30,745 nucleotides of DNA from positions 1 to 30,745 of the IMG/VR virus record IMGVR_UViG_3300031951_000833. One strand, given 5' to 3'. Positions 2,692 to 20,007 of this stretch are shown one piece after another (positions within the stretch are counted from its first letter, which is position 1; the number at the start of each line of letters is the position of its first letter). The position numbers and the translations under genes were made by a program. The DNA comes from a virus. The notes below the pieces were generated by a model. That model searched no databases. It was not told the origin of the DNA and saw only the letters and a program-made list of their open reading frames with translations.

Positions 2692-4361
2692 TAGATAGTT
2701 GTTAAGGTTGCTAATTGAGTATCACTTAAAGCGGTTGCCCAAGTAGCAGATGCGTTAAAAAATACATTCCCAAATTCTACGTTGTTAAAACGAGCACCTA
2801 AATTAATTTGTGACGGGTTCGTGTTTGCGTAGGTTATAGATGCTTCTTGACTACCGTTAGCAAAGATTTTTACATTTGTTCCGTTCCAAACTATTGCCAA
2901 TTTGTTTCTTGTGTTGGCATTGATTGTTATAGTTGTACCCGTATTTGTAAAAAGTTGGTAAGAATTTGAAGTCAATTTGTAGAACGCAAGTCTATTTGTA
3001 GTTCCATTTACACCGTCACTAACGTCAAAAATATATTGAGTATTTGACGAGTCTGTGCTTGGTGCTATAAAGTCGCAAAAGAACGTACCTTGATTTGTAC
3101 CAAAAAACGAACTAATACCCGTCTTTGATATTACGTCTGCGTTGCGTGTTACACTTGCAGAGGTTGTAGGAATGTATGAAGTTGGATAAGAACCCGCTTC
3201 GAGTTGTGCACCCCAAGCATAGAATGAAGCTGAAGTGCTGAATACAACCCTACCTCTATTTGCTCCAAAAGACGGGCTTAAAGAGTTTGCGATGCCATAC
3301 ATACAAAACAAGTTGACATCCGTTGTTGATACGCTCAAAGTAATTCGACGCCACCCGTTGCCCTCGTCTGAAATTGTAGCTACTTGGTTCGTAACCCCAC
3401 CACTTTGAAAGGTTGCAGTTGTTAGGTTGTCAAGGTCATAAACACCCGTTGCCCAATCCGTACCCGTTCCTTGATGATTAAGTGAAATGTAAACAAATTG
3501 TGCGGTGTTCTTTTTTACGTAGATACTTGAAGTGGTAGTTGAACCACCCGTAAACGCTTGGTAAAAGTCGTGGATTGTATTAGTGCCATCTCCAGCCCAT
3601 TGTTCTGCGGTTGTGTTGCCATCGGGTGCAGTTGTGGCATTGGCGGTCATTGTTCCGTTTATCTTATCCCAAGCCGCATTGTCAAAAGACGAACTATAAA
3701 GAGCGAGGTTTGTTCTTTGCGGTTCTACAAGTAAACTTGGACAAGTTCCGTTTGAGTAGTCAAGTCGTGGTATGTTAAGTCTTGTTTCCGTCTTTTGGTA
3801 GTCTTTAGCGGTTGAACCCTCGACTACTTGACCACCCCAAACTTCTATATCCGTTGCGGTTGAACTAAAGGTATCAATAAAAATAAAATCTATTGTTCCT
3901 ACTGCCGTAACACTATACCTATTCCAACCACTTTGTAGTGTTACAACATTGTCAGTACCTCCGTATGAGATAGCTATTGTTTGACCAGCAACTCCTTTTA
4001 TCCAAACTGAAAAAGTACCATTTAGATTTGTTAGTCCACTAATAGCTTTTGCCCAAATTTGATTGATTGCAGTAAATAAAATCCTTGTACTTGTGTTAGT
4101 TCCATTAGGAGCAATTCCATAATTTGCGGTGGCAGTCACACTACCTAAATAAGCGTACCAACCATTTGTAAAATCTTGCGACCAACTCAACAAATTGTAA
4201 GGCACTAACTCCACCAAGCCAGCAGAGTTTACTCGTGTTGCGGTGGTTGCTCGGGTTACTGACAAGTCGCCACTTCCGTCCGACGGAATAACGGAATATA
4301 ATTTACCCTCCTTATATCCGTTTGGCGTTACAATTAAAGAGGCAGTATCTAATAGGCTCAT
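2691..4361 (-). CDS. Tail fibre / receptor-binding protein with lectin-like domains
   Basis: The product is 556 residues and rich in Thr, Ser, Asn and Gly, as adhesive beta-structured phage fibres are. Residues ~1-50 would attach to the tail. Two jelly-roll-like modules follow (~55-195 and ~215-405). Each opens with an NL..(W/Y)S..F.N..W pattern and closes with WG(G/A)Q near the module end, so they look like an internal duplication of a carbohydrate-binding module. Residues ~410-556 resemble a concanavalin A/LamG domain (KLAIVWNGTNVKIFANG). It probably recognises host surface glycans. Base usage differs from the neighbouring tail genes: I found no CTAG tetranucleotide here, while it is frequent in the tape measure gene. 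That is consistent with recent exchange. Confidence 0.7.
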   Translation of the reverse strand: MSLLDTASLIVTPNGYKEGKLYSVIPSDGSGDLSVTRATTATRVNSAGLVELVPYNLLSWSQDFTNGWYAYLGSVTATANYGIAPNGTNTSTRILFTAINQIWAKAISGLTNLNGTFSVWIKGVAGQTIAISYGGTDNVVTLQSGWNRYSVTAVGTIDFIFIDTFSSTATDIEVWGGQVVEGSTAKDYQKTETRLNIPRLDYSNGTCPSLLVEPQRTNLALYSSSFDNAAWDKINGTMTANATTAPDGNTTAEQWAGDGTNTIHDFYQAFTGGSTTTSSIYVKKNTAQFVYISLNHQGTGTDWATGVYDLDNLTTATFQSGGVTNQVATISDEGNGWRRITLSVSTTDVNLFCMYGIANSLSPSFGANRGRVVFSTSASFYAWGAQLEAGSYPTSYIPTTSASVTRNADVISKTGISSFFGTNQGTFFCDFIAPSTDSSNTQYIFDVSDGVNGTTNRLAFYKLTSNSYQLFTNTGTTITINANTRNKLAIVWNGTNVKIFANGSQEASITYANTNPSQINLGARFNNVEFGNVFFNASATWATALSDTQLATLTTI

Positions 4362-4729
4362 ATTTCAAATGAATTTAAAGTTTCTTCAAGGCAGACTTCG
4401 GCTTCAAACGTACCGCCGTCCGTGTTTATGCGTGCTAAAAATAAGTCGATTAAGTCAGCGCTTTGCTGAATCTGTAGGGCTAGGGCTTCAATCCATGATC
4501 CGTTTACAGGACCTGTAGCGCCAAAGTCTAAAGCTAGCGCCTGAATCCATGCTTCGCCGTCGGCTTTATTTACGTTGAAAAAGTCGCATAGTGCTTCTAG
4601 CCATGTGCCGTTTTTTGTTTGTGTTATTCCGTAGTGCTTACAGATTGATTGCCAAAGGTTGCCGTCTACGTCGGGGGCTTGTAAGTCGTGGGCTATTGTG
4701 TGTAGCCATGAGCGGTTATAGATTGCCAT
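4358..4729 (-). CDS. Tail-region protein with five ~19-residue W-repeats
   Basis: The product is 123 residues. Residues ~5-90 are five imperfect tandem repeats of about 18-20 residues around a core like NGxW(L/I)xAL: NRSWLHTIA, DGNLWQSIC, NGTWLEALC, DGEAWIQALA and NGSWIEALA. The C-terminus (~95-123) carries TDGGTFEA followed by a cysteine, a short motif also found at the N-terminus of the large protein at 7234-10077. No enzyme motif is visible. The start has the TTTAATATNGTTATG late-gene motif, and the stop overlaps the fibre gene by 4 bases. The position suggests a baseplate or fibre-attachment component; the function is unknown. Confidence 0.65.
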   Translation of the reverse strand: MAIYNRSWLHTIAHDLQAPDVDGNLWQSICKHYGITQTKNGTWLEALCDFFNVNKADGEAWIQALALDFGATGPVNGSWIEALALQIQQSADLIDLFLARINTDGGTFEAEVCLEETLNSFEI

Positions 4730-18089: not shown

Positions 18090-19037
18090 TTAAAATAATT
18101 GTGTTTGAATAACGGGTGCATAATTAGAGTCATAATTTTTATTCTCGCCTTTTGGATATGGGAGTGACTCATATTTCATCGTTTTAATAATTTTATTCCT
18201 TGTTTTCTTACATGCACAAATAAAGACATATCTATTTTTTGGGAGTATTTCTATTTTTTGCAACTCCAATTTTTTTATGATTTCGTTAGAATCAGCTACC
18301 ATTTCATAGTTCAACATTTCTTTATCGTGTTTATCATCAAAATTTAATATTTTTTTGAGTGCAACCCAATCATCAATATTTGGAAAACTAAATCCAGAAT
18401 CTGTACGAAACCAATGAGAACAAGTGTCTTTGTAACCGAATATTTTATCTAAGTCTTTGTATTTAAAATTTCCTTTGTATTGTTTTAAATAATTTGCTAT
18501 GTCAATTCTGTTAATCTTATGCTCGTCTATTCGTCTTTTAATCATTGACACATTGATTTTATTATTTTTTTGGTAATGACCAATATTTCGAAAATGAAAT
18601 TCTTTGCCTTCTTTGTCAATTAATTTGGTTGTGTTTGACGTTGTCCCAGTATAAATAAAATTACACGCTTGGTATATATAGCCGTAATGACTCATGTTTA
18701 GATCACTAAAAGAAACTACTATTTTGGGTTTAGGTAACATATTCAAGCAACTCGAAACAAAAAAAGAAAGTACATTTTTTTCTAAGTTATTATTTACCAC
18801 AAGTCTATTTAATTCTATGACAATGTCCTTGTATTCTTTTCCGCATATGCTTTCACAAAGAGTTGGACTAGGTGGCATGCCAAAGGTACACACACCTTGT
18901 AAAATTAAATTTTCATTGTATAATCCAAAAGAATATGAAATGCTACATAGTCTTTTAGCATAGTGTTTATTTAATAGCCAATCATTACACAAATAAGAGT
19001 CAATCGATTTTATTGTATATTTTTCTTTTATACTCAT
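18090..19037 (-). CDS. Mom-like DNA-modification protein with C-terminal HWFR domain
   Basis: The product is 315 residues. Residues ~10-130 match the GNAT-fold Mom family (phage Mu Mom modifies adenines to escape restriction): NKHYAKRLCSISYSFGLY, a GVCTFG strand, VIELNRLVV near 73-81, KNVLSFFVSSCLNMLPKP, then VVSFSDLNMSHYGYIYQA ending at ~124. Residues ~178-235 form a second domain centred on SHWFRTDSGFSFPNIDDW, a pattern I know from the C-termini of phage and bacterial DNA methyltransferases, probably used for DNA recognition. The gene is clearly AT-richer than the flanking recombination genes. It has a 4-base overlap with the zinc-finger gene upstream. Catalytic chemistry and target base are not readable from the sequence. 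Confidence 0.65.
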   Translation of the reverse strand: MSIKEKYTIKSIDSYLCNDWLLNKHYAKRLCSISYSFGLYNENLILQGVCTFGMPPSPTLCESICGKEYKDIVIELNRLVVNNNLEKNVLSFFVSSCLNMLPKPKIVVSFSDLNMSHYGYIYQACNFIYTGTTSNTTKLIDKEGKEFHFRNIGHYQKNNKINVSMIKRRIDEHKINRIDIANYLKQYKGNFKYKDLDKIFGYKDTCSHWFRTDSGFSFPNIDDWVALKKILNFDDKHDKEMLNYEMVADSNEIIKKLELQKIEILPKNRYVFICACKKTRNKIIKTMKYESLPYPKGENKNYDSNYAPVIQTQLF

Positions 19038-19282
19038 AAGTCATTTTTTAAAAATTTTAAGGCTTGGTTTTTATTCTTGAAGTGGTGTACTATAAACTTT
19101 CGTTCTCCGAAGTCGTATCTAACGGCTCGTAGTTCACGTAGCATTCTAGCGCGTGTGCATCTTTTACAACTAAATAGTTTACCTTTTCGTTCTGGTCGTC
19201 CGTATTCGCGTCGGTTTTCGTCGTAGCTTGTAAGGGGTTTAAACTTGAAACAGGTAAAGCATTGTATTTTATCATTGTTCAT
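19034..19282 (-). CDS. Small zinc-finger protein
   Basis: The product is 82 residues. Cys8/Cys11 and Cys39/Cys42 bracket a basic loop (SYDENRREYGRPERKGK) and form a likely four-cysteine zinc finger of the kind found in small HNH-like or DNA-binding phage proteins. No histidine or Asn nuclease core is evident. The C-terminus is basic. It is sandwiched with coupled overlaps between the methyltransferase-like and Mom-like genes (TAATG and ATGA), so it may serve the same modification module as a nucleic-acid adaptor. Confidence 0.6.
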   Translation of the reverse strand: MNNDKIQCFTCFKFKPLTSYDENRREYGRPERKGKLFSCKRCTRARMLRELRAVRYDFGERKFIVHHFKNKNQALKFLKNDL

Positions 19283-20007
19283 TATATTTTTTCTATTTTA
19301 AAGTAAACTCTAGAAATGTTTTGCCAATTTCTTATATAAATAGGTGTCAATTTTTTTCTATTACGGACACCAATTTTTAACACTACATTGACTAAGTTTT
19401 CGATAGTAAATTGTTCGAGCGTTTCAATGCCGTAAAATTTATTTACGTAGTCAGTTCTTTTAAAACGCAAATGTCCCATTTCGCCAAATGTAATAATCAA
19501 ACCTTTTTTAGCCATTTTAACAGACAGATCAAAACAATCAAAGGCGCTACCAAAAGGGTCTATGTCAATTAAATCAAAACTGCAATTTTCATAGTACAAT
19601 TTGCAAACTAATTTTTCCGCCTTATCGTTGTAGTAAGTATTAAATTTGCTTTCTATGTCGTTAGTATATACTTCATCCACCTTGTCTAAATAATAAGAAT
19701 GCGCTCCAGCAAATAGATCTAGTACGCTTTTAGGTTTTATTTCAGACAAAAACAATTCATTGTGAAAATATTTGTCTTCAAGGTGCTTTTCATTGTATGT
19801 ATTACTTTTTTTTGCAATACGTTTCATTTTAATTTGTACCTGTAAAACATCCCTGTCTATAGACTCGGCAATAGCTTTTATTGAATGGCCTTTTTCTTTT
19901 AAATCTATGCACCATTCTATCTCTTTTTGAGTCCATTTTCTAGGTTGGTTTAATGTAATACCACCATTTTTTAAAAGTTTTCCTTTGTATTCATTTGGCA
20001 TTTTCAT
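19282..20007 (-). CDS. Class I methyltransferase-like protein with N-terminal HTH and DPFG motif
   Basis: The product is 241 residues. Residues ~22-66 look like a Myb/HTH DNA-binding unit (RKWTQKEIEWCIDLKEKGHS, then IKAIAESIDRDVLQVQIKMKR). A Rossmann-type SAM domain follows: motif I SVLDLFAGAHS at 94-104, acidic TNDIE at 115-119, and motif IV LIDIDPFGSAFD at 146-157. DPFG in place of the DPPY/NPPY of amino-methylating DNA enzymes recalls the Trm1 tRNA guanine-N2 methyltransferase family. With an HTH attached and a Mom-like gene two genes downstream, DNA is a plausible substrate, but tRNA is possible. The gene is AT-richer than its surroundings and overlaps its neighbours by 1-4 bases. Confidence 0.6.
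   Translation of the reverse strand: MKMPNEYKGKLLKNGGITLNQPRKWTQKEIEWCIDLKEKGHSIKAIAESIDRDVLQVQIKMKRIAKKSNTYNEKHLEDKYFHNELFLSEIKPKSVLDLFAGAHSYYLDKVDEVYTNDIESKFNTYYNDKAEKLVCKLYYENCSFDLIDIDPFGSAFDCFDLSVKMAKKGLIITFGEMGHLRFKRTDYVNKFYGIETLEQFTIENLVNVVLKIGVRNRKKLTPIYIRNWQNISRVYFKIEKI

Follow-up and report, generated by a model that had tools for sequence, protein, structure and literature searches.

A predicted helix-turn-helix domain shared with viral DNA methyltransferases is inserted within the Mom fold of a virus protein

The mom locus and its surroundings

The DNA studied here (the window, 30,745 bases) is an entire IMG/VR virus record, and its minus strand holds a mom-like gene that has an ATG start, encodes a protein of 315 amino acids (P0001) and ends with a stop codon at 18090-18092 (Table 1). 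A sequence-only reading had described the product as a Mom-like protein of a flavobacterial phage with a putative DNA-recognition domain fused to it; the ORF and the peptides quoted from it (ELNRLVV, VVSFSD, HYGYIYQA and SHWFRTD...DDW) are found exactly at 18090-19037. The best terminase relatives belong to Parabacteroides and Flavobacterium phages and the best portal relatives to Nonlabens phages. Phages of Bacteroidota (Parabacteroides, Flavobacterium, Nonlabens and Cellulophaga) are among the relatives of these two proteins, which makes a Bacteroidota host likely and a flavobacterial one plausible. Over the first 25 kb of the window, we found no DNA-level similarity to named phages.

Table 1. 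Positions of the Mom-family ORF and its parts in the window
Feature	Position	Strand	Evidence
Mom-family ORF with inserted HWFR domain, 315 aa (P0001)	18090..19037	-	PF25680 2.8e-30; phrog_1384 3.8e-54; 8bv8 phmmer 6.9e-9, VIA Z 19.1
Mom catalytic core, residues 7-161, GNAT-fold strands and helices through and past putative beta6 (residues 128-132)	18555..19019	-	Mu Mom alignment; 58-sequence alignment; AF2 model
S91 (position of Mu Mom S124)	18765..18767	-	alignment; invariant in 58 Moms
Inserted HWFR domain, residues 162-250, predicted helical lambda-repressor-like HTH with one strand flanking each side	18288..18554	-	methyltransferase homology; models; empty site in compact relatives
Predicted recognition-helix region, residues 203-211 (KDTCSHWFR), HWFR = 208-211	18405..18431	-	position-by-position conservation; AF2 helix boundaries
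Mom C-terminal part, residues 251-315, including the last GNAT strand (residues 268-274) and the PYPKGxNxxYD tail	18093..18287	-	common to compact Moms; VIA alignment with 8bv8

Just upstream of mom and overlapping its start by 4 bases lies an ORF of 82 aa with a CxxC...CxxC pattern (19034-19282, minus strand). In phage Mu, com, which exerts translational control, overlaps the mom start in the same way. The 82-aa ORF has only weak, endonuclease-like PHROG matches (best E 0.007) and, among the fetched loci, is confined to the near-identical L001 and L018, and we therefore do not claim a Mu-style Com regulation for the window.

Other ORFs of this neighbourhood differ between close relatives. A 241-aa ORF at 19285-20007 (minus strand) combines an HTH-like N-terminal part (phrog_323, 2e-7) with a Trm1-like methyltransferase part that contains a DIDPFGS motif (PF02005 at 1e-5, below the cut-off); relatives in named phages were not found. 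L001 lacks it and has the 98-aa and the 82-aa ORF side by side. Conversely, L001 has at about 3951-4622, between mom and ninG, an extra 224-aa ORF resembling C5 methyltransferases (SSPPCPTHS) that is absent from the window. Around mom, modification genes appear to be gained and lost.

P0001 is a Mom-family protein

P0001 matches the Pfam Mom family (PF25680) over residues 7-182 with an E-value of 2.8e-30 and 105.9 bits, against a curated cut-off of 27.1, and PHROG 1384 ("Mom-like DNA modification protein") at 3.8e-54, and phmmer aligns it with the crystallised Mom of phage Mu (8bv8) at 6.9e-9, all far above chance. The AlphaFold2 model of the full-length protein (pLDDT 94.2, pTM 0.81) superimposes on 8bv8 with a VIA Z of 19.1 and an rmsd of 3.5 over 192 aligned residues that span model positions 1-296, while the next-best GNATs reach a Z of 11.8. 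Hence, profile searches and structure prediction both recover Mom and not an unrelated fold, in agreement with the sequence-only reading. In the alignment with Mu Mom and in a 58-sequence Mom alignment, residues H25, Y26, R29, E75-L76-N77-R78, S91, S109, D112, Y122, Q123 and N126 are invariant. S91, constant in all 58 Moms, aligns with S124 of Mu Mom, which is changed in the protein of PDB 8bv8 ("inactive mutant S124A"). By Pfam, PHROG, fold and invariant residues alike, P0001 is a member of the Mom family.

The identity to Mu Mom is only 22-24%, and sequence does not reveal chemistry. One could thus imagine a Mom-fold enzyme that acts on another base or on RNA, or that transfers another acyl group, with its additional domain serving something besides adenine hypermodification. 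We regard such a change as very improbable, given the strong Pfam and PHROG Mom matches and the retention of the residues invariant with Mu Mom, the S124 equivalent included.

The HWFR domain is an insertion within the Mom fold

The viral relatives of P0001 are of two kinds, compact Moms of about 203-276 aa and long Moms that carry, in addition, a domain named here for its HWFR motif. In P0001 this domain comprises about 87 residues (about 162-250) and lies inside the Mom fold, ahead of the last GNAT strand. The compact Moms match P0001 from residue 1 to about 170 and again from 267 to 315, with the middle absent; in four of them (L145, L146, L148 and L161) the linker is kept on both sides and about residues 168-249 are missing, and these relatives, as read from their sequences, are a natural empty site for the insert. 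The VIA alignment with Mu Mom reaches model residue 296, which places residues that follow the insert within the Mom fold. The domain had been read as a fusion making up the C-terminal half of the protein; this is ruled out, because Mom sequence resumes after the domain, as seen in the compact-Mom matches, the VIA alignment and the empty site.

The insert is bordered in the AlphaFold2 model by strands 128-132 and 268-274. Judging by GNAT topology and by the ranges aligned with 8bv8, we take these as beta6 and beta7, which would put the insert in the beta6-beta7 loop. In many GNATs this loop participates in substrate binding together with alpha1-alpha2, whereas in some, such as NAA40 and NAA80, it has no role in specificity (PMC7790372).

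The same domain occurs in DNA methyltransferases

When residues 163-315 were compared with phage records by tblastn, the three matches were all DNA methyltransferases. An HMM built from methyltransferase copies of the domain only, with no Mom sequences, scores residues 162-250 of P0001 at 64.7 bits, compared with at most 12.2 bits in 1000 shuffles; it also matches the HWFR Moms and none of the compact Moms. The resemblance to DNA methyltransferases that the sequence-only reading had noticed is therefore real, and chance is ruled out as its source. A 33-sequence alignment of the domain shows the core HWFRxD...P....W..L, with invariant R17, L32, HWFR, D61, P67, W72 and L75. We found no Pfam name for it.

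Among the fetched loci, the domain is carried by 63 Mom, 48 C5 methyltransferase and 5 N4/N6 methyltransferase proteins (50, 37 and 4 at 95% non-redundancy); it is homologous across these three chemistries. C5 enzymes have their target-recognition domain in a variable region between motifs VIII and IX, and in those with readable motifs this is where the HWFR domain lies. In the N4/N6 enzymes of L098, L210 and L080, PPY precedes it and FxGxGT follows; the partial sequence of L077 has it ahead of FxGxGT. Thus, the expectation that the pattern belongs to methyltransferase C-termini holds for a single case seen, L252, but the domain is mostly internal. A tree of the HWFR domain separates the Mom copies from the C5 copies, and the N4/N6 copy of L098 joins the Mom copies (100/100) on a long branch. 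The N4/N6 methyltransferase of L210 (1514-3364) apparently has two tandem HWFR-type domains, the second degenerate.

Named phages with an HWFR-insert Mom were not seen: none of 159 Mom-matching records covers 80% of the query, and among the 60 Mom matches listed from these records, all end by residue 195. The counts for Bacteroidota genomes were 1/296 for Mom and 6/395 for HWFR, two of the strongest of the latter being one N4/N6 and one C5 methyltransferase. Some Moms have a further domain of about 113 aa before the HWFR domain (L037 at 1691-2962, L039, L041, L042, L131, L132, L134 and L135). It matches phrog_12251 (4e-15) and, below the cut-off, YunG (PF24585, 4e-5), and its GHCYVASE...STHWF...IIDIT pattern resembles a Cys-His-Asp triad.

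A probable lambda-repressor-like fold

Modelled alone, the HWFR domain reaches a pLDDT of 82.8, and its VIA fold list is dominated by lambda-like HTHs, among them lambda cI (Z 7.6), P22 c2, C.AhdI and SinR; cyanase and HppE chains are in the list as well. Foldseek E-values against solved HTHs are weak (best 0.27), VIA Z stays under 8, and no solved structure is significantly related to the insert by sequence. Individual members of the domain family match HTH families, all weakly (HTH_3 with a best E of 1e-4, HTH_19 with 8e-4, and others); the window copy has no HTH_3 match, and the full-length match seen falls under the cut-off. With the Foldseek and Z values this low, the assignment comes from the near-unanimous fold list together with the weak sequence matches, and these support an HTH of the lambda-repressor (XRE/Cro-CI) type.

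Read from the alignments, the HWFR motif lines up with "srWErG" of HTH_3 and probably makes up the last part of the recognition helix together with the turn that comes next. This helix is nearly constant across the Mom inserts, most of which read K-D-T-x-A/S-HWFR; if it is specific, the Moms therefore probably have one shared preference and not diversified ones. For the putative DNA-recognition domain of the sequence-only reading, then, a predicted lambda-repressor-like HTH at the target-recognition position of methyltransferases stands, while DNA binding and altered specificity may follow from it.

Some lambda-like HTHs in enzymes, cyanase and HppE among them, are not specificity modules, and the presence of these chains in the fold list is compatible with a structural or protein-interaction module that has no DNA role, like the lambda-like HTHs of cyanase and some oxygenases, and that serves to dimerise the enzyme or to dock it on a protein of replication or packaging. 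The setting of the genes among replication, recombination and terminase genes would also fit such a module. We consider it quite improbable, because every enzyme class that carries the module (Mom, C5, N4/N6) acts on DNA bases and several members match DNA-binding HTH families.

Gene slot and co-occurrence of the two Mom types

In the relatives, the same slot adjoining ninG, near helicase, Erf and exonuclease genes, holds a Mom of one kind or the other, HWFR or compact. On a tree of the Mom core and tail (a quick tree from 180 columns), the presence of the HWFR domain requires five changes, four of which are forced by supported branches. Among 80 sampled contigs seeded on the Mom core, 34 have an HWFR Mom, and 6 of these also have one or two compact Moms; of the other 46, which have a compact Mom but not an HWFR one, none holds a second Mom (Fisher p 0.0045, an optimistic value in view of near-duplicate contigs such as L108 and L136). 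Over all loci there are 13 multi-Mom contigs, each with exactly one HWFR copy. Three consecutive mom genes lie in L122 (2486-4697), one with the HWFR domain and two without. Of the neighbours of HWFR Moms, one matches the TET-associated glycosyltransferases (PF20691, 8.5e-35), two match C5 methyltransferases and one matches N4/N6 methyltransferases.

These patterns bear on whether the HTH is instead a general DNA-holding domain, which would raise activity through affinity or processivity, with little sequence preference and an unchanged target motif. The nearly constant recognition helix of the Mom inserts would agree with this, as would the association of the module with enzymes of very different chemistry. 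Affinity alone explains poorly why some phages with an HWFR Mom retain a compact Mom, and the domain occupies the place of target recognition in C5 enzymes and, in most N4/N6 enzymes, is flanked by catalytic motifs; we find this explanation unlikely on the whole.

Proposed function

The reading that we favour, with reasonable if modest confidence, is that P0001 is a Mom-type anti-restriction enzyme for adenine hypermodification whose inserted HTH docks on DNA and alters either the choice of sites or the hold on DNA relative to compact Moms. By homology to Mu Mom, the enzyme would carry out an N6-carbamoylmethyl-type modification ("momylation") of adenine. Made during infection, it would shield the phage DNA from host restriction, a role that we infer by analogy with Mu Mom as the sole model. 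The HWFR-family HTH, placed in the loop that joins the last two GNAT strands on the acceptor-substrate side, would contact DNA beside the target adenine and so shift the sites modified, or the affinity for DNA. In viral C5 and N4/N6 methyltransferases, the module may have a comparable task.

More tentatively, and at somewhat less than even chances, the HWFR domain may be a transferable target-recognition cassette that viruses use in three unrelated chemistries (m5C, m4C/m6A and Mom-type adenine hypermodification), with some phages pairing a plain and an HWFR Mom for different contexts. A caveat to site specificity is that the near-constant recognition helix of the Moms fits better with one shared preference, or with a non-specific or structural role, than with diversified specificity.

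Comparison with known systems

P0001 shares with Mu Mom (8bv8, PF25680) the GNAT-derived fold, the KHY, ELNR, S, SxxD and YQAxN residues, the last strand and PYPK, but the Mu protein lacks an HTH insert at the corresponding position. The compact Mom-like proteins of phages of Listeria, Proteus and others (phrog_1384) have a Mom core that is about 41-54% identical in named phages, and compact viral Moms share core and tail with P0001; they lack the HWFR domain and have instead 38-66 aa of several types between the core and the last strand. In viral C5 and N4/N6 methyltransferases (for example Pelagibacter phage HTVC134P, Bacillus phage CM1, L098, L210), the HWFR domain is homologous and about 21-34% identical to the window copy, whereas the catalytic domain and the chemistry are different.

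Modular recognition units on one catalytic scaffold are also known from the multi-specific C5 methyltransferases of Bacillus phages, which have arrays of target-recognition domains (PMC12707154); those modules are in C5 enzymes only, whereas the HWFR module of P0001 is in a GNAT-type enzyme and its specificity is putative. In jumbo phages, Mom is likewise part of a larger protein, being fused to restriction-endonuclease-fold domains (PMC7824862); the partner there is a nuclease, whereas the addition in P0001 is an HTH lying within the Mom fold. In the literature that we searched, which did not include the main Mom papers, neither the HWFR domain nor a Mom with an internal HTH was found described, and an earlier description may exist.

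To our knowledge, little is understood of the way in which a Mom enzyme selects its adenines. The two kinds of Mom described here provide matched enzymes with and without one domain, in some cases within a single genome, and this domain is also present in the well-understood methyltransferases. Comparing them would show directly if the target of a hypermodification enzyme is set by a discrete module, and the HWFR domain could flag viral DNA-modifying enzymes that are as yet unannotated.
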